A stretch of DNA of 48,061 nt. Origin: Adlercreutzia sp. ZJ473 (lineage in GTDB: Bacteria > Actinomycetota > Coriobacteriia > Coriobacteriales > Eggerthellaceae). Position 1 is the stretch's first letter; each line of letters opens with the position of its first letter. Of the stretch, positions 19,518 to 38,057 are shown piece after piece. The stretch lies in assembly GCF_013185065.1 (NCBI RefSeq), contig NZ_JAAVTO010000013.1, positions 1-48,061 on the forward strand. Direction: 5' to 3'. Made by a program: the position numbers and the translations under genes. Under the pieces are notes generated by a model. The model searched no databases. It was given only the letters and a program-made list of their open reading frames with translations, and had not been told where the DNA came from.

Positions 19518-19561
19518 AACCTCTTGACTTGACGGCGTAAGTCCTCTGCGTTGGCAGCGCC

Positions 19562-19582
19562 TTCTTTCTGAGGAAGGAGGTG
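19562..19582 (+). promoter_or_regulatory. Partly sequestered strong ribosome-binding site
   Basis: AAGGAGGTGA (about 19574-19583) is a near-perfect anti-16S match, 7-8 nt before ATG 19590. CTTC/CCTTC just upstream can pair with GAAGG, masking part of the site, as is common in type I toxin mRNAs. Confidence 0.5.
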
Positions 19583-19589
19583 ATTGCCC

Positions 19590-19709: not shown

Positions 19710-19721
19710 CAGCTTGCGGCC
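19698..19721 (-). terminator. Intrinsic terminator of the predicted antisense RNA
   Basis: Perfect 9-bp arms GGCCGCAAG (19698-19706) and CTTGCGGCC (19713-19721) with a 6-nt loop that contains the TAG stop of the peptide gene. Read on the minus strand it is followed by a T-rich tract (19688-19697 complement). Confidence 0.6.
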
Positions 19722-19768
19722 CAGTACCATCAACGGCGCTGCCTGACCCACATGCGAGGCAGCCGTCG
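19698..19768 (-). ncRNA. Predicted antisense RNA (antitoxin candidate) over the 3' end of the small peptide gene
   Basis: Predicted transcript starting near 19768 and running leftward. Its promoter is TTGAAA-18 nt-TATAAT on the minus strand. It would contain a GCTGCCT/AGGCAGC hairpin (19738-19763) and end at the GGCCGCAAG/CTTGCGGCC hairpin (19698-19721), followed on the minus strand by TTTCCCTTTCC, an intrinsic-terminator tail. The RNA would be about 75-80 nt and overlap the last codons and 3' UTR of the peptide mRNA. Confidence 0.6.
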
Positions 19769-19774
19769 AGTCGT

Positions 19775-19804
19775 ATTATAGCAACCCCCGCGAGGAGATT
19801 TCAA
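19775..19804 (-). promoter_or_regulatory. Near-consensus sigma70-type promoter reading antisense to the small peptide gene
   Basis: On the minus strand, TTGAAA (complement of 19799-19804) and TATAAT (complement of 19775-19780) are separated by 18 nt. It is among the best promoter matches seen in the window. It overlaps the acpS ribosome-binding region on the other strand. Confidence 0.65.
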
Positions 19805-19812
19805 GGCAGGCC

Positions 19813-20430: not shown

Positions 20431-20612
20431 GGGCGGGCTCCGTGTCCGTCCGGGTTCCGACAGGGTAGCGGCCTGCCTGGCGGTCCATGTGTTCCTGAGG
20501 TGCTGAGCCTTTGCCCTGTGCATGGCCTTGTGTGATCGTTGCACCGCATATACGTTAGTTGTGTCGGAAAAGGAATCATTCGCCGATCGTGCCTTCTCAG
20601 GCTTCTCCTTAT

Positions 20613-22027: not shown

Positions 22028-22930
22028 ATGAAGGGGATAATACTCGCGGGCGGGAGTGGCACCAGGCTCTACCCGCTGACGACTGTGACGAGCAAGCAGC
22101 TGCTGCCGGTCTACGACAAGCCGATGATCTACTACCCGCTGTCGATCCTCATGCTGGCCGGCATACGCGACGTCCTCGTCATCTCGACGCCGCACGACCT
22201 GCCGAACTTCGAGGGCCTCCTCGGCGACGGATCCCAGTTCGGCGTGCATCTGTCCTACGCGGTGCAGCCCAGCCCCGACGGCCTGGCCCAGGCGTTCGTC
22301 ATCGGCGAGGACTTCGTCGGCGACGACTCGGTGGCCCTCACCCTGGGGGACAACATCTTCTACGGCGGCGGGCTCACGTCCCGCCTGCGCGAGGCGTCCT
22401 CGAGGGAGGAGGGCGCCACGGTGTTCGGCTACTACGTCCCCGACCCCGAGCGCTTCGGCGTGGTGGAGTTCGACGGGGAGGGCAGGGCCGTCTCCATCGA
22501 GGAGAAGCCCGAGCATCCCAGGTCCAACTACGCCGTGACGGGCCTGTACTTCTACGACAACCGCGTCGTTAAGTGGGCCAAGGAGGTCGAGCCGAGCGAG
22601 CGCGGCGAGCTCGAGATCACCTCCCTCAACCAGCGCTACCTCGAGGACGGCTCGCTGAGGGTCCAGCTGCTGCACCGCGGCAGCGCCTGGTTCGACACCG
22701 GCACCGTGCAGAGCCTGGCCAGGGCCTCCGAGTACGTCCGGGTCGTCGAGGAGGGCCAGGGGATCCAGATCGCGTCCCTGGAGGAGATCGCGTTCAACAA
22801 CGGCTGGATCTCCCTCGACGCGCTGCGCGATGCCGCGGAGCGCTACGGCAAGTCCTCCTACGGCAGGTACCTCAGGACGGTCTCCGAGGGCCGCGTGCGC
22901 AGCAGCTCGGGCACGTTGCGAGAGCTCTAG
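22028..22930 (+). CDS. rmlA: Glucose-1-phosphate thymidylyltransferase
   Basis: A 300-residue nucleotidyltransferase (RmlA/RfbA) that makes dTDP-glucose from dTTP and glucose-1-phosphate. The signature [11 protein letters not shown] lies at residues 8-18. [30 protein letters not shown] and [12 protein letters not shown] are also characteristic, and the length is typical. It is the first gene of the glycan operon. Arg codons AGG/AGA are more frequent here than in the housekeeping genes upstream, which use mostly CGC, although GC stays high. rmlC and rmlD are absent from the window, so rhamnose is not the obvious end product. Confidence 0.96.
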
Positions 22931-23947
<1,017 letters not shown>

Positions 23948-23948: not shown

Positions 23949-24608
23949 ATGACGGCCAAGCTCATAGCCGTGGAGGGCCTCGACGGCTCCGGCAAGGAGA
24001 CCCAGGCGAGGCTCCTCAGATCCGCCCTCGAGGCGCGCGGCCTGCGCGTCGAGTCGGTCAGCTTCCCCCGCTACGGGCAGAGCGGCGCGGTCCTGGTCGA
24101 GGAGTACCTGCGCGGGGACTTCGGCGCCGACCCGGAGGCGGTCAACGCCTACGCAGCCAGCAGCTTCTTCGCCATGGATCGCTTCGCCAGCTATTTGCGC
24201 GAGTGGAAGGACCTCTACGAGGGCTGCGACGTCTTCCTGGCCGACCGCTACGTCACCAGCAACGCGATCCACCAGTGCTCCAAGCTCCCGCGCGGCGAGT
24301 GGGAGTCCTTCCTGCTGTGGCTCTTCGACTACGAGTACGGGAAGCTGGGGCTCCCCGAGCCGGCCCAGGTCTTCTACCTGCACCTGGGCGTGGGGGACTC
24401 CCAGCGCCTGCTCGACGAGCGCTATCACGGAGACCAGCTTCGCAAGGACATCCACGAGCACGACGTCGAGTACCTGAGGAAGAGCCAAGCGGCCGCCGAG
24501 TACTGCTGCGGGCGCTGCGGCTGGGAGCGCGTCGAGTGCATGCGCGGCGGCCGCCTGCGTTCGGTGGAGGACATCCACGCTGAGATATTGGAAAGGTTGG
24601 AGAGTTGA
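23949..24608 (+). CDS. tmk: Thymidylate kinase
   Basis: A 219-residue P-loop kinase of the dTMP kinase family: the Walker A region is VEGLDGSGKE (about residues 8-17), with FPRYGQSG and the LADRYVTSN (DR motif) also present. A Lys/Arg/His-rich lid follows (ERYHGDQLRKDIHEHD). It phosphorylates dTMP to dTDP. The C-terminus has an unusual CCGRCGW stretch. Its place between rmlB and the sugar aminotransferase suggests a dedicated enzyme supplying dTDP/dTTP for sugar-nucleotide synthesis rather than the general housekeeping kinase. It overlaps the next gene by TGATG coupling. Confidence 0.87.
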   Translation: MTAKLIAVEGLDGSGKETQARLLRSALEARGLRVESVSFPRYGQSGAVLVEEYLRGDFGADPEAVNAYAASSFFAMDRFASYLREWKDLYEGCDVFLADRYVTSNAIHQCSKLPRGEWESFLLWLFDYEYGKLGLPEPAQVFYLHLGVGDSQRLLDERYHGDQLRKDIHEHDVEYLRKSQAAAEYCCGRCGWERVECMRGGRLRSVEDIHAEILERLES

Positions 24609-25735
24609 TGCCTGGTCAGAGGAAGATCCTTGTCACGCGCTCGTCCATGCCCCCCTTCGAGGAGTACTGCGACGAGATCCGCGAGCTGTGGGACACCCAC
24701 TGGCTCACCAACCGGGGCGTGAAGCACAGGCAGCTCGAGGACGCCATACAGGAGTACCTCGGGGTCGAGCACATGACGCTGTTCGTCAACGGGCACAGCG
24801 CCCTCGAGTGCGTCCTCGAGACGATGGAGCTCGGCAGGGACGGGAGGGACGAGGTCATCACCACGCCCTTCACCTTCGCCTCGACGACGCACGCCATCGT
24901 CAGGAAGGGCCTGAGGCCGGTCTTCTGCGACATCAGGCCGGGCGACTACACCCTGGACCCGTCCAAGATAGAGTCGCTCGTCACCGAGCGGACGTGCGCC
25001 ATCGTGCCCGTCCACGTGTACGGCAACGTGTGCGACGTCGACGCGATCGAGGAGGTGGCCGGCAGGCACGGCCTCAAGGTGGTCTACGACGCGGCCCACG
25101 CGTTCGGCGTGGAGAGGGACGGCGTCGGCGTCGGGAGCTTCGGCGACGCGTCGATGTTCAGCTTCCACGCGACCAAGGTGTTCAACACCATCGAGGGGGG
25201 CGCCGTCGCGCATCCCGACGGCGTGCTGTCCGACCGCCTGGCGCAGTGGCGCAACTTCGGCATCACGGGGCCGGAGGACGTAGTCTATGTCGGCGGGAAC
25301 TCCAAGATGAACGAGTTCGCTGCCGCGATGGGCATCTGCAACCTGCGCCACGTGGACAACGAGATCGCCAAGCGCAAGGCGGTCGCGGAGCGCTACTGGG
25401 AGCTGCTGGGCGGCGTGCCCGGGGTCAAGGTCTGCGTGCCTCCGAGCAACGTCAGGCACAACTACGCCTACATGCCGGTCGTGTTCGACCCGGCCGAGTT
25501 CGGCGCGACCCGCGACGACGTGCTCGACGCGCTCGCCCGCGAGGGCGTCGGCGCACGCAAGTACTTCCACCCGCTCGTCAGCGACTACGCCTGCTACGCG
25601 GGGCGCTTCGACTCCTCCGACACTCCGGTGGCGCGCGAGGTGGCCGCTCGCGTGCTGACGCTTCCCCTGTACGCCGGCCTGGCGCTTGCGGACGTGGATC
25701 GGATTTGTGGTATCACGTTGAAAGTCGGTGCGTAG
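24608..25735 (+). CDS. dTDP-4-keto-6-deoxyhexose aminotransferase (DegT/DnrJ/EryC1 family)
   Basis: A 375-residue PLP-dependent sugar aminotransferase. The Schiff-base lysine is K190 in SFHATKVFNTIEGG, and the preceding DAAHAFG carries the PLP-contacting Asp. With RmlA and RmlB upstream it most likely transfers an amino group to C4 of dTDP-4-keto-6-deoxyglucose, as VioA or DesI do, giving dTDP-4-amino-4,6-dideoxyglucose (viosamine/Qui4N); the fucose-configured isomer is an alternative. The ATG at 24608 overlaps the tmk stop. It is the last gene of the GC-rich segment; base composition falls sharply right after it. Confidence 0.87.
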   Translation: MPGQRKILVTRSSMPPFEEYCDEIRELWDTHWLTNRGVKHRQLEDAIQEYLGVEHMTLFVNGHSALECVLETMELGRDGRDEVITTPFTFASTTHAIVRKGLRPVFCDIRPGDYTLDPSKIESLVTERTCAIVPVHVYGNVCDVDAIEEVAGRHGLKVVYDAAHAFGVERDGVGVGSFGDASMFSFHATKVFNTIEGGAVAHPDGVLSDRLAQWRNFGITGPEDVVYVGGNSKMNEFAAAMGICNLRHVDNEIAKRKAVAERYWELLGGVPGVKVCVPPSNVRHNYAYMPVVFDPAEFGATRDDVLDALAREGVGARKYFHPLVSDYACYAGRFDSSDTPVAREVAARVLTLPLYAGLALADVDRICGITLKVGA

Positions 25736-25739
25736 TCTA

Positions 25740-26690
25740 ATGGTCAATCAGGTTCAGTCTGTATTTGCAGTTGAAAGAGATCTTCTTGATGGCTCCCAGG
25801 AAATGATTAAGCGGCCTCGAAAGGTACAAATGCAGGGAAGGGCTTACACCGAGTCCCAGCAACGTAAGTTCAATCTCCTGACCAAAGAGATGCGCCTTGA
25901 GGTCGCTGCCTGTATCAAACGCGATAACTGGGAAAACGCGAATCACATGCAAGAACTGGCGCAACCTGTCGACACCGTCTATTCTCGCTACGTAAAACGT
26001 ATTCTCGACATCGTGTTTTCTGGGATAGCGCTCATCATCACTTTTCCGGTGAACTTTGCTCTTCTTGTTGGCACTGCCTTGGATGTGGGGAGTCCTATCG
26101 TTTTCAGGCAGAAGCGTACGGGAAAGGATGGCAAGCCTTTCTGTCTAATCAAGTTTAGAAATATGACGAACGAGACTGACGAGAATGGAGAGCTACTACC
26201 TGCGCGGGATAGAGTAACTAAGTTTGGCAAGTTTGTCCGTAGAGCTTCACTTGATGAGCTTTTGAACTTTTGGAGCATATTCAAGGGTGACATGTCGCTT
26301 GTGGGTCCTCGCCCCCTTAAGGAGGAGACAGCGGACCGTTTCAGCAAAAGACATGCCGGAAGATTTGCTGTACGCCCTGGTCTCGAGTGTCCAATTCTTG
26401 GAGTAACTGATCATTCACCCACTTGGGAGGAGAGGTTGGAGAACGATGTCTGGTATGTGGAACACCTCTCGTTTTCCACAGACGCGAGGATGCTTTTTGG
26501 CGTGGTGCGTATGACGCTCGACTCTAAAGCTCGCTGTTACCGCGCTGGCGCTGGTGGTGGCGGTTTTATGGGCTATGACGAGGACGGCCATGTCATCGAT
26601 CAGGCATCCATCCCTGAGAAGTACCTTGATGAGGTCCTGCAAAGACACGGCCTTTTGAAGCAGGCGAAGGAAGCTGATTTCCATGCCTAG
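25740..26690 (+). CDS. Initiating bacterial sugar-phosphate transferase (polyprenyl-phosphate glycosyl-1-phosphate transferase)
   Basis: A 316-residue membrane-associated transferase of the WcaJ/PglC-type bacterial sugar transferase family, placing the first sugar phosphate on undecaprenyl phosphate. A soluble N-terminal region of about 85 residues precedes one hydrophobic segment (about 90-110, KRILDIVFSGIALIITFPVN). The catalytic core has GSPIVFRQKRTGKDG, the Asp-Glu dyad in SLDELLNFW, and SLVGPRPL. A C-terminal tail of about 60 residues is not typical of PglC. ATG 25740 is preferred over GTG 25728, which overlaps the previous gene. From here GC content drops to near 50-55 percent, marking a different origin from rmlA-aminotransferase. 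Confidence 0.9.
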   Translation: MVNQVQSVFAVERDLLDGSQEMIKRPRKVQMQGRAYTESQQRKFNLLTKEMRLEVAACIKRDNWENANHMQELAQPVDTVYSRYVKRILDIVFSGIALIITFPVNFALLVGTALDVGSPIVFRQKRTGKDGKPFCLIKFRNMTNETDENGELLPARDRVTKFGKFVRRASLDELLNFWSIFKGDMSLVGPRPLKEETADRFSKRHAGRFAVRPGLECPILGVTDHSPTWEERLENDVWYVEHLSFSTDARMLFGVVRMTLDSKARCYRAGAGGGGFMGYDEDGHVIDQASIPEKYLDEVLQRHGLLKQAKEADFHA

Positions 26691-27606
26691 GATTCTCCTC
26701 GGCAATTGCTACGACAACGCGTCATATAAGATCCTCAAGGCATGCGTTCCGACGGGTTATGAGCTCTTTCAGCTTTCCGAAGCAACCCAAGCTGCGCTGC
26801 TCGAGGCCATTCCCGAGGCCGAGTATCTTATCGCAAGTGGGCGACTTAAGATTGATGTTGGTGTGATTGCTCGAGCAAAAAAACTCAGGCTTGTTGTCAG
26901 AACTGGTGTCGGACTCGATTCTATAGATCTGCCCGCATTGGAGGCGGCTGGTATACCTCTGCGTGTGAACGCCGGCGTCAACGCTGAGAGCGTTGCCGAG
27001 CACACGTTGCTCCTCATTCTCGCTGCACTTCGACGTCTACCTGAAGCAGACCGGAAGGTCAAGGCGGGTGAGTGGCCCAAGCGTGCGCTTGGGGTTGCGT
27101 CACACGAGCTCAGGGGAAAGAAAGTTTTCGTCGCGGGTCTCGGCAACATAGGCCGTCGCGTTGTCCAGCTGCTCGGGCCGTTTGGCTGCAAGGTAGCGGG
27201 CTCGGATAGTCTTGACCGAGCGAATCTCCCGGTCGACTTCTTCGACTCCGATATAGTGACTCTGCACTGTCCTCTTACGCAAAGTACGGAGCGACTCATC
27301 GACAAGGATGTAGTCGCTCGGCTGAGGCCGGGATGTATTATTGTGAACACGGCACGCGGTGGTCTCGTGGATGAAGAAGCACTCGCTGAGGGGCTTCGCA
27401 GTGGGTGTATTGGATTCGCCTGCTTAGACGTGCGCGCGAGCGAGCCGAGTCGCGATCCCGCTCCCTTTGCCGGACTCGACAACGTGATCCTGACTTCTCA
27501 TATTGCCGGCATAACTTACGAGTCCTTCGAGAGCATGATGACTGGTGCTGTGAAGAACATAGTAGAGTTTGAAGAGGAATACGACTCGAGCTGTTGCGAG
27601 AACTAA
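26683..27606 (+). CDS. D-2-hydroxyacid dehydrogenase (SerA-like)
   Basis: A 307-residue NAD-dependent D-isomer 2-hydroxyacid dehydrogenase. The Rossmann motif is VAGLGNIGRRVV. The catalytic Arg is in NTARGGLVDEEAL, Glu in CLDVRASEP and His in SHIAGITYES. It resembles the catalytic part of phosphoglycerate dehydrogenase without a regulatory ACT domain. It overlaps the sugar transferase gene by 8 nt and begins a seven-gene run of carboxylic-acid enzymes, so it probably oxidises or reduces a 2-hydroxy/2-oxo acid there rather than serving serine synthesis. The exact substrate cannot be read from the sequence. Confidence 0.85.
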   Translation: MPRILLGNCYDNASYKILKACVPTGYELFQLSEATQAALLEAIPEAEYLIASGRLKIDVGVIARAKKLRLVVRTGVGLDSIDLPALEAAGIPLRVNAGVNAESVAEHTLLLILAALRRLPEADRKVKAGEWPKRALGVASHELRGKKVFVAGLGNIGRRVVQLLGPFGCKVAGSDSLDRANLPVDFFDSDIVTLHCPLTQSTERLIDKDVVARLRPGCIIVNTARGGLVDEEALAEGLRSGCIGFACLDVRASEPSRDPAPFAGLDNVILTSHIAGITYESFESMMTGAVKNIVEFEEEYDSSCCEN

Positions 27607-27608
27607 AG

Positions 27609-28955
27609 ATGAAGGAGAATCTCTTAGATTGGTTCGTTGGGCATGTGCTTTCTGCTTTCGAGGAGGCCTATCGGTCGGAAGCGTGGGATGGTCCTGTCGC
27701 TATGGCGCTTCTTGACTGGCTAGCCATTACTATGGCCGGTTTGTCGGAGTCTCGGTGTGATACTGTTGATAAGATCACCCCCGTCGTATTTGATGCTCGC
27801 CTTCTTCCAGGTGGCATATGTGTTTCTAAAGCGATCCTTTATGGCATGGCCTCGCATTGCCTCGAACTTGATGACGGTTATCGGGCCGGTGGTGTTCATG
27901 TCGGGGCCCCCGTGATAAGCGCCCTTGTTGCGAGTGACGTTAATGCAGATTGGCCGACAATTCGACAGGCAGTGCTCTGCGGGTATGAGGCGACAGGTAC
28001 CATTGCCAGACTTATGCAACCCGGGCACAAGAGGCGAGGTTTTCATGCTACAGGTACTTGCGGGTGCATAGGGGGTGCGGTCGCTGTTGCTATTGCCGCA
28101 GGCCAAAGCGTTAATGAGATCAAGAGAACCGTTTCAGCTGCTGCGTCCATGGCATCTGGGCTTCTTGAAATGCAGGAGGACGGCTCTCAGATGAAGGCAC
28201 TCACCGTGGGGAACGCCGCGCTAAATGGGATCGTAGCGGCAGCTGTGGGTGGAGGAAACCTTAGGTTTCCAGCTGACGCGCTTGGTGGTCCTAGAGGCCT
28301 TTTTTCATGTATGGATGCTTCTGGGAGTGCGCCAACGGATGCAGAAGGTTTTTGCCTCGCAAACGTGTACAGAAAGCTATATCCCTCCTGCAGACATGGA
28401 CACTCGGCCATTGATGCTGCTTTCGCAATCCAGAAGTCGAGAGGCTTCGATCCAAATGATATCAAGGATATAGAAATTGCTACGTACAAGGACGCCATAC
28501 TTGGTCACAACCTTGTCGATATCTCTACCGATAGTCAGGCGAAAATGAGTACGCCATACTGTGTCGCTTCCGTGTTCGTGCGTGGTAGTTTCGGACTCGA
28601 TTCCTTCGATGAAGCTGCTCTCCGTGATCCTATGGTGCACGGACTCATGCAGAAAACTCATGTCGTTGAGGCAAAGGAACTCAGCGAGCTGGCGCCTCAA
28701 AAGCGGGGTGCGCGCGTTACGGTTACTCTTGGCGATGGGACACGCCTGGCGAAAGAGATTCTTGATCCCAAGGGCGAGCCCGAGAATCCATTGAGTGCCG
28801 AAGAGCTTGTAGATAAGTGTGCACCACTGCTAATGCGATCAGGCTTAAGTGACAAGGCTACTCAGAAGTGCATTGAGAAGTTGCTCGTGTCATGCCAATG
28901 CAGCCTGCAAGAACTTAGGAGTTATTTGACTCTTGAAGAAAGGAACAAACGATGA
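27609..28955 (+). CDS. MmgE/PrpD family protein
   Basis: A 448-residue member of the MmgE/PrpD family (2-methylcitrate dehydratase, cis-aconitate decarboxylase and relatives), shown by ELDDGYRAGGVHVGAPVISAL, GYEATGTIARLM, FHATGTCGCIGGAVAVA, LLEMQEDGSQMKALTVGNAA and KLYPSCRHGHSAIDA. It should dehydrate or decarboxylate a tricarboxylic or branched hydroxy acid. ATG 27609 was chosen over a TTG 15 nt upstream that overlaps the preceding gene; it lies 2 nt after that gene's stop. It has no prpB/prpC partners, so a propionate methylcitrate cycle is not indicated. It works with the neighbouring aldolase and fumarase-like subunits by inference. Confidence 0.82.
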   Translation: MKENLLDWFVGHVLSAFEEAYRSEAWDGPVAMALLDWLAITMAGLSESRCDTVDKITPVVFDARLLPGGICVSKAILYGMASHCLELDDGYRAGGVHVGAPVISALVASDVNADWPTIRQAVLCGYEATGTIARLMQPGHKRRGFHATGTCGCIGGAVAVAIAAGQSVNEIKRTVSAAASMASGLLEMQEDGSQMKALTVGNAALNGIVAAAVGGGNLRFPADALGGPRGLFSCMDASGSAPTDAEGFCLANVYRKLYPSCRHGHSAIDAAFAIQKSRGFDPNDIKDIEIATYKDAILGHNLVDISTDSQAKMSTPYCVASVFVRGSFGLDSFDEAALRDPMVHGLMQKTHVVEAKELSELAPQKRGARVTVTLGDGTRLAKEILDPKGEPENPLSAEELVDKCAPLLMRSGLSDKATQKCIEKLLVSCQCSLQELRSYLTLEERNKR

Positions 28956-29872
28956 CAGCCATGGACGAGACAAGGGGCTTCTTGGGTAGCTTAGGATTGC
29001 CCGAGGGAGATCTATACAGCCTTCCGACCTCTAGCAAAAGATTCCCAGATGGTGGCCAGTATCGCTTTGAAGTTCCTGGGATACAGGGTCCTGCAGCCAT
29101 GCGATCTCTTCTTGATAAACTTGACGAGTACGGAATTGCTATTCATCGGGTTACTCAGACGAAAGGTATCATGACTCTTCTCGACTCAGAAATCGAGGAG
29201 ATGGTGTCCCTCGCAAGCGAGCGTGGGATCCAGCTCGTCCTTGCGATTGGCCCTAGGGCCACTACTGACACATCGGCTTCGGTGAAGACCGAAGAGGGAA
29301 AGCGTATCGGCTATCGCCTGCGCGGGCAAGAGCAGATCGTACGCTCCATCGAAGAGGTGAGACGTGCTGCAAAGCTTGGCGTTCGAGGCTTCATCCTCTA
29401 TGACGAGGGCTGTCTTTGGGTGCTTTGTGAGGCTCGTAAAGCTGGGCTGATCCCCGCAGACAGTCATTTCAAGATGTCTGCTCACGCAGGTATCTCGAAC
29501 CCTTGCTCAGCTAGGCTTTTCGAGTCGATTGGGCTTGACTCTGTCAACCCTGTTCGTGACATTCAGCTGCAGATGCTCGCAGCCATCCGTCAGGCCATTT
29601 CGATTCCTGTCGATGTTCACACCGAGAACCCGCTGAGTTCGGGAGGTTTTATCCGGCACTATGAGATTCCCGAGATGATTAGGACCGGGGCTCCAATTTA
29701 TCTCAAGACGGGAGGAAGCGTTGCGGGAACGCACAGCTGGGATACGACGGCTGAGCAGGCAAAGCAGCGCGCCAAGCAGGTCGCTCTCGTCAAACGCATG
29801 ATCGATGAGTACTATCCCGAGGCTGTTGCTTCACCAGCTGGCTCTATTTCTTGGGGAGGTGCAAATGAATGA
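28952..29872 (+). CDS. TIM-barrel protein, possibly peptidase-U32-like
   Basis: A 306-residue protein with a repeated beta-alpha pattern suggesting a TIM barrel: YRFEVPGI, RGIQLVLAIGPRA, VRGFILYDEG, HFKMSAHAGISNP, IPVDVHTENPLSSGGF and GAPIYLKTGG. The Asp/Glu/His residues at strand ends look like a metal or carboxylate site. It recalls the U32 peptidase-like group, but I could not place it with certainty; a lyase or aldolase role is equally possible given its neighbours. It is translationally coupled to the MmgE/PrpD gene (ATGA) and to the ATP-grasp gene, which starts 8 nt before its stop. There is no signal peptide. Confidence 0.55.
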   Translation: MTAMDETRGFLGSLGLPEGDLYSLPTSSKRFPDGGQYRFEVPGIQGPAAMRSLLDKLDEYGIAIHRVTQTKGIMTLLDSEIEEMVSLASERGIQLVLAIGPRATTDTSASVKTEEGKRIGYRLRGQEQIVRSIEEVRRAAKLGVRGFILYDEGCLWVLCEARKAGLIPADSHFKMSAHAGISNPCSARLFESIGLDSVNPVRDIQLQMLAAIRQAISIPVDVHTENPLSSGGFIRHYEIPEMIRTGAPIYLKTGGSVAGTHSWDTTAEQAKQRAKQVALVKRMIDEYYPEAVASPAGSISWGGANE

Positions 29873-31139
29873 TGGTCGTAAGGTCGCTGTCGTCCTCGGC
29901 GGCACAGCTGCTCATATTGCGCTTCTGAAGGAGCTAAAGGGGCGTGGCTACTATACGGTCCTTGTAGATTACTATCTCAATCCTGTTGCAGCACCCTTCG
30001 CTGACGTTCATATTCGGGAGAGTACGATGAACCAGGAAAAGGTTCTTGAGATAGCACGCTATTACGATGCAGATCTGGTTCTGAGTACCTGCGTTGATCA
30101 GGCGAATATCACTGCTTGCTACGTCATGGAGGCCCTTGGGAAAACCCCGCCGTATACCTACGAAACAGCACTATCCATCACTGACAAGCTTGAAATGAAG
30201 CGTGTGATGCTGGAGAGCGGCATTCCCACATCCCGACAGGCTCTTGTAGGCGATGGCATCCCAGACGTCAGCTCGCTTTGCTTCCCGATTATGGTAAAGC
30301 CTGTCAACTGTTGCGGAGCGACCGGGGTCAAGAAGTGCGAGGACATGGAGCAATTCAAAGAGTACTATCCCTTCGCTGTTGAGTGCAGCAGAGACGGTAG
30401 GGCTCTTGTCGAGGAGTTCGTCAGTGGAGTAGAAGTTAGCGCTTACTTCTTTGTGACAGATGGGGAGCCGGTCTTACTCTCTACTGCTGAGCGTCTTAGC
30501 GTGCTCGACGGCCCCAAAGACGTTCTCAAATGTTATGGCACGATTATGCCCTCTTCCTGCGGTGAGGACGCTATTGCCAAGATCAAGAAAGCTGCTGGTG
30601 ACATCGTCCGCTGCTATAGCCTGGACAATACACCTCTTCACGTTCAGGCAATCGTCGACGGGGATAGCATCAGTCTTCTCGAGTTCGCGCCGCGTGTTGG
30701 CGGAGGCCTCAGCTACATTACCGTTCGAAAGCGCACAGGCTTTGATGTCATCTCGGCTGCCGTAGACTCATGGGAAGGTAAGCGCGTCCAAGCTGCGATT
30801 TCCGAAAGCCCTGTCACTCAGATCATTCACCTCATCTATGCCAAGCCTGGTTACTTTGGCCGCATTGAGGTGTCAAGTGAGATTCTCGAGGACAGACTCA
30901 TCGATGCGCTCTTTGAGTATAAGAGTACTGGAGTGCGCATTGGCGAGGAGACGGCATCTGCGGGACGGGTCGGTGCTTTTGTCGTGAGCGGCGTGACGCA
31001 GGAGGAGGCCTTCGCAAAGATAAGAAGAGCCTTTGCGGGTGTGAGGGTCTTCTCAACCGATGACGAGGACATTACGCAAAGAAATCTCTCTATAGCTGAT
31101 CTATACACCATTACACTGATAGAAAAAGGAAACGAGTAA
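29865..31139 (+). CDS. ATP-grasp carboxylate-amine/thiol ligase
   Basis: A 424-residue ATP-grasp enzyme. An N-terminal Rossmann-like domain (VAVVLGGTAAHIALLKELKGRGY) is followed by the ATP-grasp core: SITDKLEMKRVMLESGIP, FPIMVKPVNCCGATGVKKC, ALVEEFVSGVEVS, and the metal-binding EFAPRVGGGLSY. A C-terminal domain of about 100 residues resembles those of D-Ala-D-Ala- or carbamoyl-synthetase-like ligases. Such enzymes activate a carboxylate as acyl phosphate and join it to an amine or thiol. The ATG at 29865 has GGGGAGG just upstream. In this cluster it is the best candidate for coupling the module's acid to an amino acid or to the amino sugar. Confidence 0.82.
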   Translation: MNDGRKVAVVLGGTAAHIALLKELKGRGYYTVLVDYYLNPVAAPFADVHIRESTMNQEKVLEIARYYDADLVLSTCVDQANITACYVMEALGKTPPYTYETALSITDKLEMKRVMLESGIPTSRQALVGDGIPDVSSLCFPIMVKPVNCCGATGVKKCEDMEQFKEYYPFAVECSRDGRALVEEFVSGVEVSAYFFVTDGEPVLLSTAERLSVLDGPKDVLKCYGTIMPSSCGEDAIAKIKKAAGDIVRCYSLDNTPLHVQAIVDGDSISLLEFAPRVGGGLSYITVRKRTGFDVISAAVDSWEGKRVQAAISESPVTQIIHLIYAKPGYFGRIEVSSEILEDRLIDALFEYKSTGVRIGEETASAGRVGAFVVSGVTQEEAFAKIRRAFAGVRVFSTDDEDITQRNLSIADLYTITLIEKGNE

Positions 31140-31140
31140 A

Positions 31141-32283
31141 GTGAGACACCAAGAATACAACCCGAATTATGAGTTCTACAAGGCGCCCATGCCGTTTGAC
31201 AAATACACCAGCCGCGATCTCCTGCAGTATTGTCTGGGTGCGACGATGTACATGCCGGGTACGAAGGACTTCGCGCAGCAGATCATAAGTCGGCGTCATC
31301 CCGGTCTCACCTCTATGGTGATGTGCTTCGAGGACGCTTGCCCCGAATCTGATGTACCTGCTGCCGAGTTAAATGCAATCGCTCTTTTAGACACGCTAAA
31401 CGAGGCACTCGACTCGGGAAGGCTCGCCTATGATGATGTGCCGCTCATTTTCTTCCGCATTCGCAATCATGAGCAGTTCGACCATTTCGCAGGTATGCTA
31501 CGCCCAGAGCATGCACGCCTTGTATGCGGTATCAACTTCCCCAAGTTCAATGCGAATAACTGCGCCTGCTACATGGATCAGCTCGTCGCACTTAATGGCA
31601 AGATGGGTGAGGTCATATACGGCATGCCTATTCTCGAAGATTGCGAAATCGCCTTTGAGGAGTCTCGTATAGAACAGCTTCTGGGTGTTAAAGAGGCGCT
31701 CGACGCGCACAAAGAACTCGTGCTGAATGTTCGGGTTGGCGGCACGGACTTCTCCAGCTGCTTTGGCGTGCGGCGAGGCGTCAACTACACCATCTACGAC
31801 GTGATGACGGTCCGAGGCTGCCTTTGCGATATACTGAATGTTTTTTCGCGGAACAACGACTACACGATTTCGGGGCCGGTATGGGAGTACTTCCGAGCAT
31901 CAAAGGAGATGAAATTCCAGAACGAGCTGCCGCCGGTGAGCCTTGAGGACACGCTGCTTAAGCGCCGCCCCATCGTGAACGACGTGGTCGACGGTCTTAT
32001 GCGCGAGCTTATCCTCGATCAGGCCAACGGCTTCATGGGTAAGACTTGCATCCACCCGTCGCACCTGAAATTCATAAACGGCATGCTGGCTGTGACTAAG
32101 GATGAGTATTTGGACGCTGATCAGATCATGCACACGGCGGGTGGCGTTGTGAAGGGCAGCAGAGGTATGAACGAGATAGGTCCTCATCGCAGCTGGGCTG
32201 AACGTATCTGCCACAGGGCCGAGGCATACGGCGTCCTAGAGTCTGAGGCCGAATATCTGAGACTCTTCGGGGAGGACGAGTAA
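31141..32283 (+). CDS. HpcH/HpaI aldolase / citrate lyase beta-like protein
   Basis: A 380-residue protein resembling the citrate lyase beta/HpcH-HpaI family: ATMYMPGTKDFAQQII, a CFEDACPESD stretch, FRIRNHEQFD, VCGINFPKFN, MPILEDCEIAF, LNVRVGGTDFSSCFGVRR, and the C-terminal GFMGKTCIHPSHLKFINGM, which is typical of the family. These enzymes cleave or form C-C bonds of malyl-, citramalyl- or citryl-type acids or CoA esters with Mg2+. The GTG start has AAAGGA 10 nt upstream and lies one base after the previous stop. No citrate lyase alpha or gamma subunit is present, so it is not classical citrate lyase. Confidence 0.8.
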   Translation: MRHQEYNPNYEFYKAPMPFDKYTSRDLLQYCLGATMYMPGTKDFAQQIISRRHPGLTSMVMCFEDACPESDVPAAELNAIALLDTLNEALDSGRLAYDDVPLIFFRIRNHEQFDHFAGMLRPEHARLVCGINFPKFNANNCACYMDQLVALNGKMGEVIYGMPILEDCEIAFEESRIEQLLGVKEALDAHKELVLNVRVGGTDFSSCFGVRRGVNYTIYDVMTVRGCLCDILNVFSRNNDYTISGPVWEYFRASKEMKFQNELPPVSLEDTLLKRRPIVNDVVDGLMRELILDQANGFMGKTCIHPSHLKFINGMLAVTKDEYLDADQIMHTAGGVVKGSRGMNEIGPHRSWAERICHRAEAYGVLESEAEYLRLFGEDE

Positions 32284-32286
32284 CGT

Positions 32287-32817
32287 ATGGCAGGCATTCG
32301 CGAGCTCCGCATTCCCATATTGCCCGAGGAAGTGGATTCGTTGGAGGTTGGCGAAATGATTACTATCTCGGGAGGAGTCTTGGCTGGGCGTGACGCGGTC
32401 CTACCCAAGATCTGCGCACTTATTGAGGCTGGTGACCTGGGCAGTCTGTCTCGCTTTCTCAGGGGGGGCGTGGTTTTCCATACGGCAGTGAGCCTCGCTG
32501 GTGTAGGGCCCACGAGCAGCAACAAGATTGAGATAGAAGGCAGCTTTGACGTGCTGTCATCGGTGGGTGTGCGCATGCACCTGGGTAAGGGGAGTATCTC
32601 GTCCGAGACGGTCTCGGCGCTCGCCCGACGTCACGCTTGCTTTGCAGTGATTCCTCCTGTGACGGCTCTTCTCGGCGAAAAGACGCGCTCGTCTAAAGTC
32701 CTCGCGTTTCCAGAACTTGGCATAGAGGCCCTGCATCTCCTGGAAGCTGAAGGCTACCCTGCGATTATCGCGGCTGTGAACGGGCGGAGTATGTTCGAGA
32801 GTGGTACGAATGGATAG
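32287..32817 (+). CDS. Class I fumarase / tartrate dehydratase beta subunit
   Basis: A 176-residue protein matching the C-terminal (beta) part of class I fumarase and L-tartrate dehydratase: MITISGGVLAGRDAV, VVFHTAVSLAGVGPTSSNKIEI, the GVRMHLGKGSIS loop and CFAVIPPVTALL. Together with the next gene it should form a [4Fe-4S] hydro-lyase that adds or removes water from a C4-type dicarboxylate. The usual order in two-gene versions is alpha before beta; here beta comes first. It begins 3 nt after the aldolase stop and overlaps the alpha gene by 8 nt. Confidence 0.87.
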   Translation: MAGIRELRIPILPEEVDSLEVGEMITISGGVLAGRDAVLPKICALIEAGDLGSLSRFLRGGVVFHTAVSLAGVGPTSSNKIEIEGSFDVLSSVGVRMHLGKGSISSETVSALARRHACFAVIPPVTALLGEKTRSSKVLAFPELGIEALHLLEAEGYPAIIAAVNGRSMFESGTNG

Positions 32818-33682
32818 GATACGTGTTATTGACGCTGTTGCTGAGGCCCTAGTCACGGCTGGTAGCACCTACTCTCCCGAGAAGATGCGAGCGTATGAGC
32901 GGGCTCTTGCGGTTGAAACTAACGAACGAGCGCGATGGGCCTTGGAGCAGATAATCGATAACGGCAGAGCCGCTACCGAGGCGCGCTCGCCATTGTGTGA
33001 TGACACGGGCATTCCTCACCTTTTCCTTGAGGTGGGGCGGGAGCATGCCGTTTCAGACGATCTCATAAGATTCATTATCGAGGGCGTTGCCGAAGGCCTG
33101 CGGCGTCTCCCTGGTCGCCCAATGGCCGTCTGTGGTGAGGGCGACGTCCGCCTTGCGCAGGCTGAGGGCATGTACGAGGATCCTAGCATGTTGGAGCCTG
33201 CCCCTATGGCCGTGCGCGTGGTAGACGAGGACGTACTGCGACTCTCCGTACTCATGCTCGGTGGTGGACCGGCCATACGGGGCCGAAGCTTCCGCGTATT
33301 TCACCGACACAGCGCTCGAGTCGTCAAGGAGCAGATAGTCGAGTGGGCGGTTGAGGCCACTTCGCAGCTTGGCTGCACGCCCTGCACGCTCGCTGTCGGC
33401 ATCGGCCGGAGCCACTACGAGGCCGCGAACCTCATGCTAGAGGCTCAGGTTTACGGTAACTATGACGTTCAGAGCGACTTTGAGCGTCAAATAACGGAGG
33501 CAGTGAACACTCAGGGTGTGGGTGCGCTGGGTCTCGGCGGCCATACCACAGCACTCGCCACCTTTGCCAAGATCGGTCCTGCTCGTGCAAGTGGCGTGCG
33601 CATTGTGTGTTTTCGCCCATGTTGCTGTTTCGAGCCTCGCATTGCTAAGGTAGACCTTGCGGAGGTGATGGGCATTGGTTAG
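32810..33682 (+). CDS. Class I fumarase / tartrate dehydratase alpha subunit
   Basis: A 290-residue iron-sulfur hydro-lyase subunit. Candidate cluster cysteines are in [30 protein letters not shown] and [33 protein letters not shown] and [15 protein letters not shown] are also family features. It pairs with the beta subunit encoded upstream. Start: ATG 32810, within the end of the beta gene; an in-frame GTG at 32801 is an alternative. Being inside a glycan operon rather than a central-metabolism locus, it probably acts on a pathway-specific hydroxy or unsaturated diacid. The substrate (fumarate, tartrate, mesaconate or other) cannot be told from the sequence. Confidence 0.87.
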
Positions 33683-34355
33683 TCACATCGAACGCTCTGA
33701 GATTGATTCTACGGCCCGCGTGTACGAAGGGGTTCGCATTGTCGATTCCACCGTGGCAGAGGGTTGCGTTGTGGCTGATGGTTGCGATCTTGTGCGCGTG
33801 GGGATGGCCTCCTATTCCGAGCTGGGGCGGCGCAACATCGTGCGCAAGGCGCAGATCGGTGAGGGAACCTACACTGGTACGAACACTGTAATAAAAAACG
33901 CCTCCATTGGCAGATACTGCAGCATCGCCTGGAACGTGAGCGTCGGCGGAGGCAACCATAATGTGGATTCTGTGAGCACTTACACGCCCTACTGGTGGAA
34001 GCGGACTTTTGGAGTTGATCTTCCCGACGATCGCGAATCTGCATATTGCGAAGTGGGCAGTGATGTGTGGATGGGGGTTGGCGTCAACATTACGACTGGT
34101 GTGACGATTGGGCATGGCGCGGTGCTCGGTGCGGGGTCCGTTGTCGTGAAGGATGTGCCCGCTTATGCAGTTATGGGCGGTGTGCCCGCTCGGGTGATCA
34201 GGTATCGCTTCGATGAAGAGATTCGGGAGAGGTTACTGTGGCTTGGATGGTGGGACTGGCCGCGCGAGATCATCGCGAAGGTCGCGCCGCTGTTGCACAG
34301 GAGGCTCGACGACGCCGTCTTGGTAAAGCTTGAATCTATTTTCAGAGAATTGTGA
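33675..34355 (+). CDS. Hexapeptide-repeat acetyltransferase (CatB/xenobiotic acyltransferase type)
   Basis: A 226-residue left-handed beta-helix acyltransferase. Hexapeptide repeats run through [18 protein letters not shown] and [24 protein letters not shown]. The catalytic His is probably in [12 protein letters not shown], and a C-terminal helix follows [22 protein letters not shown]. It would O- or N-acetylate a sugar or donate another acyl group from a CoA ester. The TTG start (33675) is supported by GGAGGTGA six bases upstream and overlaps the preceding stop by 8 nt. It follows the acid module directly, so the acyl group could be that module's product. Confidence 0.85.
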
Positions 34356-34363
34356 GGCAGCTT

Positions 34364-35566
34364 ATGCTTAGGGCAACTCTCAAGTGTCTTGTGCGCGAGC
34401 ACTGTCCCGAAATAGACGCTCTTCGTCGCCTCATGTCTGAGGTGAAGGTTAGGGAGTGTGTCAAGTACAGCCTCCCCCAGGCTGAAATCACGCTTGGAGA
34501 AGCTGGGGGGGAAGCCCTCGAATCTGTTGTGGCCCGATGCAAGGGGCGCTGGGCTGCTGAGTGCGCTCGTATAGTTAATAGCGCAAAGGCGCACTATGCC
34601 CGATCTGGCGTTGGACTTTCCGGGGAGACGCTAGACGACGTCTTGTTCTGTTACTTTGCTTATGGCTTCATGCCCGATGAGTATATGTGCTTTGGTCTTG
34701 CGGGCCGCGCTCCTGAGCAACGCCGCGAGTTTCTCTCCAACCGTGATCGCGATGTCATTGTTTACAGCGTAAATGACATCATCGAGTTGGAGCGCTTTCT
34801 GGACAAGTGGAAGACCTACAGAGCCTATAGTAGCTGGTATGGAAGGGCTGCCGTGAGCGTGGGAAAAAAGGCGAGCTACAAAGACTATCTGACCTTCGTC
34901 GAATCTCACGACTCTTTCGTTTGCAAGAAGGTTAGGCTCTCGAAAGGCGACAGCATTCATTTGGTCAAGAATTCCGAAATGGGTGATCCCAGGACCTTCT
35001 TCGATGAAACTGCGTCGAGCGGGAATGCGATCCTCGAGGAGCCTATCGTCCAGTCCGAGGTGATGGCGGCCCTCAATCCCTCGTCCGTTAACACGCTGCG
35101 CGTCATCACCTTGAATACGCGGTATGGCGCGGAGGTGCTTGACTGCTTTCTCAAAATCGGGCGTAATGGTTCGTTCGTAGACAACGGCGGAGCCGGAGGT
35201 CTGCTTGTGGGTATAGACGCTGGCGTTGGCGTCCTCTCCACAGATGGGCGGGATGAGTTTGCCGATTCATATGCCGTTCACCCGAATACTAAGGTACGGT
35301 TCCAGGGGTATCAGCTGCCCGACTGGAACGGGGCCATGGGCCTTGCAAAGGAGCTCTCGTCTCGCGAATCGCGCGTTCCCTACATCGGATGGGATCTCGC
35401 TCATACTGACAGCGGTTGGGTCGTCGTCGAAGGGAACGCGAGCGGGCAGCTTATTGGTCCCCAGATCGTGAGTCAGGTTGGCTCGCGCCGACGCGTCCTT
35501 GCGGCTTTGCATGACGTTGAACAGATCGTCCCATTGAACCTAGAGGAGAAGTCTTGCCTAAAGTAA
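34364..35566 (+). CDS. Sugar-transfer-associated ATP-grasp protein
   Basis: A 400-residue protein of the ATP-grasp family found next to glycosyltransferases (ATPgrasp_ST). Recognisable parts are FVCKKVRLSKGDSIHLVKN, SSVNTLRVITLN, the DNGGAGGLLVGIDAGVGVL stretch, LPDWNGAMGLAKEL, YIGWDLAHTDSGWVVVEGNA and LIGPQI. It probably joins an amino acid or other carboxylate to a sugar or glycan-lipid intermediate. ATG 34364 has GAGG six bases upstream; a GTG at 34352 overlapping the previous stop (GTGA) is the alternative. It is the second ATP-grasp ligase of the operon, which suggests two amide- or ester-forming steps. Confidence 0.8.
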   Translation: MLRATLKCLVREHCPEIDALRRLMSEVKVRECVKYSLPQAEITLGEAGGEALESVVARCKGRWAAECARIVNSAKAHYARSGVGLSGETLDDVLFCYFAYGFMPDEYMCFGLAGRAPEQRREFLSNRDRDVIVYSVNDIIELERFLDKWKTYRAYSSWYGRAAVSVGKKASYKDYLTFVESHDSFVCKKVRLSKGDSIHLVKNSEMGDPRTFFDETASSGNAILEEPIVQSEVMAALNPSSVNTLRVITLNTRYGAEVLDCFLKIGRNGSFVDNGGAGGLLVGIDAGVGVLSTDGRDEFADSYAVHPNTKVRFQGYQLPDWNGAMGLAKELSSRESRVPYIGWDLAHTDSGWVVVEGNASGQLIGPQIVSQVGSRRRVLAALHDVEQIVPLNLEEKSCLK

Positions 35567-36603
35567 GCGTCATAGTTCCAGTGTACGGTGTGGAGCCGTA
35601 CCTCAGACAGTGTCTAGACAGCATCCTTCGTCAGACCCTTGAGAATATCGAGATCATCATCGTCGATGATGGGAGTCCTGACGACTGTCCTTCCATCATT
35701 GATGAGTACGCCGAGCAAGACTCTCGGATTATAGCCATTCACAAACAGAACGCCGGTGTTTCTGCCGCTCGCAACGACGGCATAAAGCTTGCCAGTGGCG
35801 ATTACGTCTTTTTTTGTGATAGCGACGATTGGCTGCCGGTCGATGCTCTGAAAGCCCTGTTGGAAGCTGCTGAGCATGCCTCTGCTGACGTCGCCATAGG
35901 AGACTACATCGAGAGCAGCGGGTCCAGCGAGCGGGAACTTAGGATGTTTTCAAACGAGTTCGAGACAGAAAGCCGCATCTCTATTGATTGTATACAGAAG
36001 GCTGTGTTCAACAAGGGGCGTGCGAACTATTCATGTGGCGATTTTAAGTATGCTCGGGGATTGGGCGCTCCTTGGCATCATCTTATAAGGAGAGAACTCG
36101 TCGCCGACCATGGGCTTGAGTTCAACTGTCGCGTCCGCGGAATTTTCGATGATGGCATTTTTATGCTGGAAGTTTTCGAGCATGCAGGGTGTGTGGTTTA
36201 CATTCAGGAGCCAACATATTATTACCGTGTTGTCGGCACATCCATTACTCACGGATATAAGGCCGACCTTCTCGATCGCTATCAGAGGGTCTATATGGAG
36301 CTCGAGAGCTTTATCGATCGCAATAAAAAAGACGAAGCGTTCAGATGTGCCTACTATGTCCGCGTGTATGCGTATCTCAACAAGGCCATGTCGGCCTACT
36401 TTTTGAATCCCGCCAATGAGATGACGGAAAAAGAGCGATACGCCGAGTATGTGCGCACGGTTAAAGGTGCTCCCTATGACGTGGCAATACGCGAGATGGA
36501 CGAGTCTGCACTCGGTTACAGAAGGAGTCGTGCCCTTTCGCATTTGCTTAAATTGCACAGATACAAAGCCTATTGGCTAGTCAAAAAGCTCTTTTCTGGA
36601 TGA
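35554..36603 (+). CDS. Family 2 glycosyltransferase
   Basis: A 349-residue GT-A glycosyltransferase: SVIVPVYGVEPYLRQCLDSI, IIIVDDGSPDDC, NAGVSAARNDGIKLASGDYV, and the metal-binding DSDD in FFCDSDDWL. After the about 220-residue catalytic domain there is a helical C-terminal part. It is the only classical glycosyltransferase gene in the operon; together with the initiating transferase this implies a short repeat unit, perhaps a disaccharide, unless other loci contribute. The TTG start has AGGAG six bases upstream and lies inside the preceding gene's end. It is coupled to the flippase gene. Confidence 0.92.
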   Translation: MPKVSVIVPVYGVEPYLRQCLDSILRQTLENIEIIIVDDGSPDDCPSIIDEYAEQDSRIIAIHKQNAGVSAARNDGIKLASGDYVFFCDSDDWLPVDALKALLEAAEHASADVAIGDYIESSGSSERELRMFSNEFETESRISIDCIQKAVFNKGRANYSCGDFKYARGLGAPWHHLIRRELVADHGLEFNCRVRGIFDDGIFMLEVFEHAGCVVYIQEPTYYYRVVGTSITHGYKADLLDRYQRVYMELESFIDRNKKDEAFRCAYYVRVYAYLNKAMSAYFLNPANEMTEKERYAEYVRTVKGAPYDVAIREMDESALGYRRSRALSHLLKLHRYKAYWLVKKLFSG

Positions 36604-36611
36604 GGCGGTTT

Positions 36612-38057
36612 ATGCCTGTATCGGTAAAAAAGAACTTTCTGTATCAGGCGTCCTATCAAATTCTCCTGATTATCACGCCTTTGGTTACCACTCCGTACCT
36701 TTCTCGTACGCTCGGGGCGGAGGGTGTGGGGATGTTTTCTTATACGCACGCTATCACAAACTACTTCGTGATGTTCGCAACTCTTGGCATGGCGAACTAC
36801 GGCGTGCGCGCTATAGCGTTGTGTGGGGGGAGCCGCGAGAAGAGGTCTCGGGTTTTCTGCAGTGCATACCTTTGTCAGCTGGGGGTTGGCGTCGTTGTCT
36901 TGCTCGCCTATGTCAGCTATGCTACTACTGCGCCGCAAGGAGGCACGTTTCTCGCCGTTATCTGGGGCTTGTGGGTCATCTCGGCTCTCATGGACGTCTC
37001 CTGGTTGCTTTTTGGTGTTGAAGAGTTCAAAGTTCCCACGATCAGGTCGACTGTGACTAAGCTTCTCAGTCTTGTGGTCATCTTCTCCTTCGTGAAGTCG
37101 CAAAATGACCTATGGATCTATGTGCTTGCTATCTCTGGAAGCTTTTTTTTGAATCAAGTACTCATTTGGCCATTTGTTAGAAGATATATTGATTTTGTTA
37201 AGCCTGCGTGTTGCGAAATTATTGCGCACCTATTGCCCAATCTCAGGCTCTTTGTCCCGGTGGTGGCGATAAGTCTTTACACATCGCTGGATAAGATTCT
37301 GCTTGGCGCTATTGCTGGGGCAGAGCAAACCGGCTACTTCGAGTATTCGGAAAAGCTCTCCAAGATACCTATGGCGCTGATAACCGCCATTACAACTGTC
37401 ATGCTGCCAAGGATGTCCTCCTCGGTCGCAGCGGGCAACAAGCAAGAAGCGCTATCTCAGCTAGAGAACTCGCTCTGGGCTATGCTTGTGCTAGCGTTTG
37501 CCTTCTGCTTTGGAATAATTGCCGTCGCTCCAGAGTTTGCTCCTGTATTTCTCGGTGACGATTTTGCGGCGTGTGATGATATGATGGCATTTCTAGCGGT
37601 GATCATTCCGTTCGTTTCGGTGAGTAACGTGCTCGGCAAGCAGTACCTGCTGCCCACGCTTAGAGACACGAAATACACGGTGTCCCTTTGTATCGGTGCA
37701 GCGGTGAATGTGGCGGTAAACCTGTCGCTTATACCGAGCCTCGGGGCGATGGGCGCAGTTATCGCTACGGTTGCTGCAGAACTCTCGGTTATGACTATCC
37801 AGATGTTCATCGTTCGTAATGAATTACCACTTATGCGTTACGTATTCAACTCGCTGCCCTTTCTCGTCATGGGCATGATAATGGCTGTAGCCGTGAGGTT
37901 TTCCGCCGAATTATTCAATTCCATTTGGGGACATTCCGTTCAAGGGCTCGTGCTTGAGGTGCTGGTAGGCGTTGTGGTTTACGCAGTGTTGTCAGTGGCG
38001 TACTGTTTCGTCACTAAAGAGAAGCATTTTAAGGCCATTGTTGGGAGTAGACGATGA
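36612..38057 (+). CDS. Polysaccharide flippase (Wzx/MATE-like)
   Basis: A 481-residue membrane protein of the polysaccharide-transporter/Wzx type with about 12-14 hydrophobic helices, starting NFLYQASYQILLIITPLVTTPYLSRTLGAEGVGMFSY, a typical Wzx opening. It should flip the undecaprenyl-linked repeat unit across the membrane. ATG 36612 is preferred because GAGG lies six bases upstream; ATG 36600, overlapping the glycosyltransferase stop, is also possible. A decayed fragment of another gene lies between it and the polymerase. Confidence 0.9.
   Translation: MPVSVKKNFLYQASYQILLIITPLVTTPYLSRTLGAEGVGMFSYTHAITNYFVMFATLGMANYGVRAIALCGGSREKRSRVFCSAYLCQLGVGVVVLLAYVSYATTAPQGGTFLAVIWGLWVISALMDVSWLLFGVEEFKVPTIRSTVTKLLSLVVIFSFVKSQNDLWIYVLAISGSFFLNQVLIWPFVRRYIDFVKPACCEIIAHLLPNLRLFVPVVAISLYTSLDKILLGAIAGAEQTGYFEYSEKLSKIPMALITAITTVMLPRMSSSVAAGNKQEALSQLENSLWAMLVLAFAFCFGIIAVAPEFAPVFLGDDFAACDDMMAFLAVIIPFVSVSNVLGKQYLLPTLRDTKYTVSLCIGAAVNVAVNLSLIPSLGAMGAVIATVAAELSVMTIQMFIVRNELPLMRYVFNSLPFLVMGMIMAVAVRFSAELFNSIWGHSVQGLVLEVLVGVVVYAVLSVAYCFVTKEKHFKAIVGSRR

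Follow-up and report, generated by a model that had tools for sequence, protein, structure and literature searches.

We analysed a stretch of 48,061 nucleotides from Adlercreutzia sp. ZJ473 (contig NZ_JAAVTO010000013.1), called the window here, in which seven co-directional open reading frames (ORFs) occupy positions 26683-33682 of the + strand and every junction between neighbours is an overlap or a gap of at most 3 nt. The original prediction had placed this run between an initiating sugar transferase and a set of glycan assembly genes, and all of the ORFs were found where it had put them, on the + strand. The ORF coordinates are mechanical calls with predicted start codons; the ATP-grasp ligase could instead begin at a Met codon near 29865. 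The run, termed the module below, comprises five core genes, a ligase gene and a tail gene, all discussed here as parts of a candidate acid pathway.

26683-27606, + strand: D-2-hydroxyacid dehydrogenase, the proposed tail, which would convert a 2-oxo acid to a 2-hydroxy acid (PF02826, 2-Hacid_dh_C, 154.7 bits; second Pfam domain 72.9 bits; both above cut-off)
27594-28955, + strand: MmgE/PrpD-type dehydratase, core (PF19305, C-terminal domain, 130.5 bits; PF03972, N-terminal domain, 87.8 bits)
28952-29872, + strand: U32-like TIM barrel, core, a proposed oxo-acid aldolase or lyase (no Pfam family)
29805-31139, + strand: ATP-grasp carboxylate ligase, proposed to join acid and amine (PF13535, ATP-grasp_4, 49 bits)
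31141-32283, + strand: C-C bond lyase, core, with a CLYBL/malyl-CoA-lyase-like fold (PF15617, 359 bits against a gathering score of 28.4)
32287-32817, + strand: Fe-S hydro-lyase beta subunit (FumB), core, GPTSSNK subfamily (PF05683, Fumerase_C, 58.1 bits)
32801-33682, + strand: Fe-S hydro-lyase alpha subunit (FumA), core, CDD.GI / C.FEPR subfamily (PF05681, Fumerase, 157.6 bits)

Recurrence of the core and its exchangeable tails

With the TIM-barrel protein as bait and each species represented by a single genome, 503 relatives were found, and the best 80 of them were kept as loci. All counts per locus are conditional on this bait and on mechanical gene calls, many of the contigs are cut, and genes were labelled by their BLAST matches to proteins of the window or to representatives. 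The loci are named Clostridia, Erysipelotrichaceae, Bacteroidales, Fibrobacter, Victivallales, Planctomycetia and Adlercreutzia; most come from metagenome assemblies, and single phylum labels may be wrong. The lyase was recognized in 76 of the 80 loci, FumB in 67, and FumA and PrpD in 66 each. All five core families were present in 54 loci, in 24 different arrangements when accessory genes are counted, and 526 of 527 module genes lie on one strand. The accessory families were found less widely (ATP-grasp in 45 loci, DegT in 36, 2-hydroxyacid dehydrogenase in 21). Among 138 genomes of the family to which the strain belongs, a full-length TIM barrel occurs in three and PF15617 scores over its cut-off in the same three, a coincidence with a probability of 2.3e-6 under random placement, kinship being ignored; a fourth TIM-barrel match covers only 86 residues (E 4.7e-4). 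Two relatives within the family (G051 and G011) hold the module families among glycan genes in different orders, and in G011 the dehydrogenase is missing, its place being taken by an aldo/keto reductase and a thiamine enzyme. A check that depends less on the bait covered 391 Clostridia genomes: seven have a TIM barrel scoring over 560 bits, and these include all five whose lyase exceeds 680 bits, thresholds that were picked after the match lists had been viewed. At E 0.001, the TIM barrel and the lyase gave matches in 16 and 28 of these genomes, and 10 genomes carry weaker lyases (140-457 bits) without a TIM-barrel match.

The tail of the module is exchangeable. It consists of an aldo/keto reductase and a thiamine decarboxylase in 43 loci, of a D-2-hydroxyacid dehydrogenase in 20 and of an Ldh_2 family enzyme in five; one locus each has both kinds, the decarboxylase only or the reductase only, and in nine no tail was seen. 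On a tree of the lyase, made by a quick search without a mixture model from 75 rows, 66 of them with a tail state (that of L009 assigned manually after its neighbour L008), the three tail states need six changes, and Ldh_2 needs four, all forced by starred branches. The loci L019, with a D-2-hydroxyacid dehydrogenase, and L042, with Ldh_2, are sisters on this tree. Cultured carriers include Eubacterium ruminantium FB3002 with an Ldh_2 tail (L020) and Lachnospiraceae FE2018 with a 2-hydroxyacid dehydrogenase tail (L062). The core product is probably a 2-oxo acid, because all three tails, two unrelated 2-hydroxyacid dehydrogenase families and a 2-oxo-acid decarboxylase with an aldehyde-type reductase, would suit such a compound and occupy the same slot. 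We suggest, with some reserve, that the core makes a non-standard 2-oxo acid, which the tails would turn into a D- or L-2-hydroxy acid or a decarboxylated alcohol, that the swaps between dehydrogenases would let lineages alter the chirality of a surface-glycan acyl group, and that the core would also act independently of glycans.

The core enzymes

The third protein matches no Pfam family at E 0.001, U32 included. Its predicted model, built from 47 sequences (mean pLDDT 85), is a TIM barrel, and the fold search gave CutC (Z 15.4), the U32 protein 5d88 (Z 14.2, root-mean-square deviation 3.3, 187 residues aligned) and class II aldolases (Z 14.2), in a range of Z 13-15 where many barrels tie. 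A sequence search of the PDB with the TIM-barrel profile returned only two weak matches (E 0.24 and 0.38). Plasmid homologues are annotated as 'U32 family peptidase'. This annotation and the match to 5d88, which CutC and the class II aldolases equal, are the links of the protein to the U32 peptidase family, but no invariant cysteine exists across the 47 aligned sequences, and given the lack of a Pfam match a U32 peptidase was rejected as its function. Relatives with 34-44% identity occur in four plasmid records without the module; those of Thermomicrobium roseum and Streptomyces nigrescens lie near MR/MLE-family enzymes, that of Enterobacter lies near a 2-hydroxyacid dehydrogenase and an aminotransferase, and sugar transporters also occur near such distant relatives. 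We infer from the modelled fold and these neighbours that the TIM barrel may be an aldolase or lyase acting on oxo acids. A cluster on an Enterobacter plasmid (locus L013, 10901-22505), which resembles a small-molecule biosynthesis cluster, combines a U32-like protein with a 2-hydroxyacid dehydrogenase, a class I/II aminotransferase, haem-oxygenase-like proteins and a nucleotidyltransferase.

The two hydro-lyase subunits (together FumBA) had been predicted to be those of fumarase/tartrate dehydratase. The family matches stand, but the motifs set them apart: compared with E. coli TtdAB and FumA, the alpha subunits have CDD.GI in 66/66 copies and C.FEPR in 64/66, the beta subunits have GPTSSNK in 65/67, and the canonical CQDTG and GPTT..RM, common to FumA and TtdAB, occur in 0/66 alpha and 0/67 beta copies. 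The window's own motifs are CDDTGI (alpha) and GPTSSNK (beta), and its scores with the NCBIfam fumarase/tartrate dehydratase subfamily models are 112.3 for alpha (cut-off 100.65) and 63.1 for beta (cut-off 145.15). Judged by these motifs, FumBA is a separate hydro-lyase subfamily, and an ordinary fumarase or tartrate dehydratase was rejected as its identity. Malyl- and tartrate-type substrates, proposed earlier for assay, are not the safest guess for a hydro-lyase without the canonical substrate motifs.

The model of the lyase (pLDDT 88.6) superimposes on human CLYBL (5vxc) with Z 25.2 (root-mean-square deviation 3.1, 281 residues aligned) and on malyl-CoA lyases with Z of about 23; a sequence search of the PDB with the lyase gave no matches. 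CLYBL and malyl-CoA lyases perform retro-Claisen chemistry at 2-oxo acids. In two genomes (G481 and G446, loci L120 and L121), the PF15617 lyase is replaced: CitD-CitE-CitF stand directly before U32-FumB-FumA, which is followed by Fe-ADH. Both of these loci retain the GPTSSNK motif, and that of G446 also holds PrpD, a FAD-linked oxidase and ETF genes; CitDEF of this type occurs in 0/80 of the baited loci. Three more distant cousin operons (L116-L118) combine a U32-like protein (49-52% identity) and PrpD with a canonical fumarase and malic enzyme, L116 also with Ldh_2 and TctA, and by their gene content look like organic-acid breakdown.

Proposed route, glycan association and alternatives

The genes around the module in the window are as follows.

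22028-22930, + strand: RmlA-type nucleotidyl transferase, sugar-nucleotide supply (PF00483, 247.9 bits)
22934-23947, + strand: RmlB-type dehydratase (PF16363, 250.2 bits; PF01370, 211.9 bits)
23949-24608: thymidylate kinase-like gene inside the dTDP-sugar genes (PF02223)
24605-25735, + strand: DegT-type sugar aminotransferase, the proposed source of the amino sugar for acylation (PF01041, 322.4 bits)
25728-26690, + strand: initiating bacterial sugar transferase (PF02397, 157.7 bits)
33675-34355, + strand: hexapeptide acyltransferase, a possible competing user of the amino sugar (PF00132, 38.6 bits)
34352-35566, + strand: sugar-transfer-associated ATP-grasp protein (PF14397, 130.2 bits)
35554-36603, + strand: family 2 glycosyltransferase, GT2 (PF00535, 138.6 bits)
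36573-38057, + strand: Wzx-type flippase, Polysacc_synt (PF01943, 104.2 bits)

This setting recurs with the window's kind of tail. A glycan marker was found in 25/25 dehydrogenase-tailed loci, compared with 21/43 loci with the reductase-decarboxylase tail, and the ATP-grasp ligase in 24/25 and 15/43, respectively. Ligase and DegT are associated across the 80 loci (p 1.2e-5) and across the 56 loci of at least 15 kb (p 1.1e-4), kinship being ignored in both. Flanking proteins were taken from + strand ORFs of 130-699 aa; 135 of 148 were scanned for the dehydrogenase-tailed modules and 131 of 137 for the others, proteins running off contigs and some others being omitted. DegT is the commonest family beside the dehydrogenase-tailed modules (18), followed by PF14397 (14), GT2 (12) and the sugar transferase (11), whereas the reductase-decarboxylase modules are flanked by flippase (9), DctM (7), DegT (6), the LysR helix-turn-helix domain (5) and CitMHS (2). 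The original prediction would have failed had the module always occurred elsewhere without glycan genes, and the 25 marked loci show the opposite. It is partly supported: its link between a putative acid-producing module and glycan genes holds up, and the conserved core, the exchangeable tails and the ligase-DegT association fit the use of an acid on an amino sugar, but the core is not dedicated to the capsule. Because 22 of the 43 reductase-decarboxylase loci show no glycan marker, the core is not capsule-specific and serves another purpose too.

We suggest that the gene set is probably an undescribed acid pathway, common to many gut and rumen bacteria, whose acid is attached to a sugar of the outer coat. 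More specifically, and with middling confidence, we propose that the seven window genes form one pathway in which a short 2-hydroxy acid is made and then joined to an amino sugar within the surface glycan. The U32-like TIM barrel would form or cleave a C-C bond in an oxo acid, the weakest step of the proposal. From the enzyme families and their co-occurrence, PrpD would dehydrate a di- or tricarboxylic acid and FumBA would return water at the neighbouring carbon, shifting the hydroxyl as happens in the methylcitrate cycle. The PF15617 lyase would free the 2-oxo acid by a retro-Claisen cleavage of the citrate or citramalate lyase type, as its fold and the CitDEF lineage suggest, and the 2-hydroxyacid dehydrogenase, given its exchange with Ldh_2 and with the decarboxylase and reductase, would reduce that acid. 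Lastly, in view of its association with DegT, the ATP-grasp ligase may activate the carboxylate and amidate the amino sugar that DegT supplies. This chemistry does not single out one acid: the C4, C5 and C6 candidates each leave at least one core enzyme unexplained.

Several observations weigh against this proposal. The hexapeptide acyltransferase at 33675-34355 could consume the DegT product instead of the ligase, and the reaction of the TIM barrel is proposed solely from its fold and distant neighbours. A recognized lyase is absent from four of the 80 loci, and FumB, FumA or PrpD from 13-14, on contigs that are often cut and were checked in only some cases. The hydro-lyase has none of the canonical motifs, and the window PrpD falls far under the prpD equivalog cut-offs (28.3 against 575 bits and 20.3 against 458). 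The CitDEF replacement represents a single lineage, CitE, CitF and U32 being 92-95% identical between G481 and G446, and one of these genomes encodes a PF15617 lyase elsewhere, on a different contig, and shows no PrpD in its CitDEF locus. Of the 43 reductase-decarboxylase loci, 22 show no glycan marker, and six of these 22 have a LysR or DctM-like gene. In addition, examples of the ligases from loci with that tail match the window ligase at only 22-35%, and by this low identity theirs may be another ATP-grasp.

Among the alternatives, it is unlikely, though worth weighing, that the 2-hydroxy acid is carried by the glycan on another sugar or an amino acid, or through an ester or ether, while the hexapeptide acyltransferase places an acetyl group on the DegT amine. 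That enzyme and a second ATP-grasp (PF14397) are encoded directly 3' of the module, PF14397 is frequent beside dehydrogenase-tailed modules, as given above, and the ligase itself weakly matches the C-domain of L-amino acid ligases (LAL_C2, PF18603, 24.5 bits, under the cut-off); yet the module ligase tracks DegT across loci. We consider it improbable that the core serves to break down organic acids and lies in the glycan operon by chance, with no acid on the glycan. The six loci with a LysR or DctM-like gene and no glycan marker would suit such a role, as would the DctM and CitMHS proteins in the flanks and the cousin operons L116-L118, but the glycan marker and the ligase are found in all or nearly all of the dehydrogenase-tailed loci, and the gene order has been reshuffled within glycan clusters.

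Ordinary C4 chemistry, in which fumarate or tartrate would yield malate or oxaloacetate and a malyl group would be placed on the glycan, could be read from the family matches to fumarase/tartrate dehydratase and a CitE-like lyase and from the Ldh_2 family, which by its name includes malate dehydrogenases. This reading has little probability: the canonical motifs are missing from every copy, a further gene of the class I fumarase type (286.6 bits) lies elsewhere in the window genome, on contig C57, and PrpD, the TIM barrel and the lyase would be superfluous for malate. The least credible is a phosphonate or sulfonate route with phosphonopyruvate or sulfopyruvate as the 2-oxo acid. Two tail decarboxylases do pass the cut-off of the phosphonopyruvate decarboxylase model TIGR03297 (397.7 and 395.9 against 312.5 bits), and the best NCBIfam match of Ldh_2, under its cut-off, is L-sulfolactate dehydrogenase. 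However, phosphoenolpyruvate (PEP) mutase is above its cut-off in just three of 24 module genomes (15 of which have a decarboxylase tail), the window genome not being among the three, and the module decarboxylases separate from the PEP-mutase-linked ones and are without their C-terminal GRPT.T..ENK stretch. Phosphonopyruvate is therefore unlikely, and the phosphonate route was rejected on the scarcity of PEP mutase and the differing decarboxylases. One locus (L063) holds a module-type decarboxylase and also a second thiamine decarboxylase (19368-20489, - strand) that groups with the PEP-mutase-linked ones.

Other features of the window bear on its history and expression. The module has a G+C content of 54.6%, compared with 68% for bases 1-26000, a drop which suggests that the module DNA was acquired; an ISL3-type transposase gene (39966-41351, - strand) directly 3' of the glycan genes, taken with this drop, fits acquired DNA. 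The thymidylate kinase-like gene at 23949-24608 recurs in loci L009, L019, L025 and L042, and its product may be the source of dTDP for the sugar nucleotide. A NusG-like protein (PF02357, 21157-21783), possibly an operon-specific antiterminator, is encoded 5' of the operon, and the G051 cluster (L009) too has a relative (34%) upstream. Further downstream, at 41925-47417, lies a gene for a predicted surface protein of 1830 aa with BspA-type leucine-rich repeats, a Cna_B domain and long, near-identical internal repeats.

Comparison with known systems

If the proposed pathway holds, a recurrent non-sugar decoration of the surfaces of gut and rumen bacteria would gain a genetic signature, and a joint role would fall to those enzymes of such operons that currently carry the annotations U32 peptidase, fumarase, PrpD and citrate lyase. 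The tail swaps would predict the C2 configuration of the acid in related bacteria, and the module would offer a setting for working out the reaction of the PF15617 family. The original prediction did not recognize a pathway with this gene set, and we likewise found no description of it in the open literature, a weak negative given that subscription journals lie mostly outside that coverage. Pathways for glycan substituents and methylcitrate-like chemistry are already known; the combination seen here is not known to us.

The methylcitrate cycle employs PrpD, an Fe-S hydratase and the TIM-barrel lyase PrpB and yields a 2-oxo acid. The module is similar in that a dehydratase of the PrpD family stands together with an Fe-S hydratase and a C-C lyase built as a TIM barrel, and in its probable 2-oxo acid output, but its hydratase is of the fumarase type and not of the aconitase type, its lyase is PF15617 and not PrpB, and it lies in a sugar operon; a Pfam scan of 20 window proteins, to which the search for them was confined, shows neither PrpC nor PrpB. 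In the mesaconate/citramalate route (PMC4682846), a class I fumarase acts as mesaconase and is combined with a citramalate lyase. The module also places a class I fumarase-type hydratase beside an enzyme of the citrate/citramalate lyase type, in one lineage CitDEF itself, whereas its hydratase motifs differ from those of E. coli FumA and TtdAB, and it adds a TIM barrel, PrpD and variable tails.

PF15617 lyases are known from the biosynthetic modules of tellurite resistance (Ter), where they have an ATP-grasp partner. The family and this partner are shared by the module, but here the lyase stands with PrpD, FumBA and the TIM barrel, and Ter-type genes are absent from the 20 scanned proteins, a set drawn from beyond bases 1-21000, as is the enoyl-CoA hydratase family. 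In the pathways of anthrose and other N-acyl-Qui4N sugars, RmlA/RmlB/DegT-type enzymes supply a 4-amino sugar that is acylated. The window operon has the same type of sugar supply and would likewise lead to acylation of a 4-amino sugar; it would differ in that the proposed acid comes from a hydro-lyase/lyase module and is joined by an ATP-grasp ligase.

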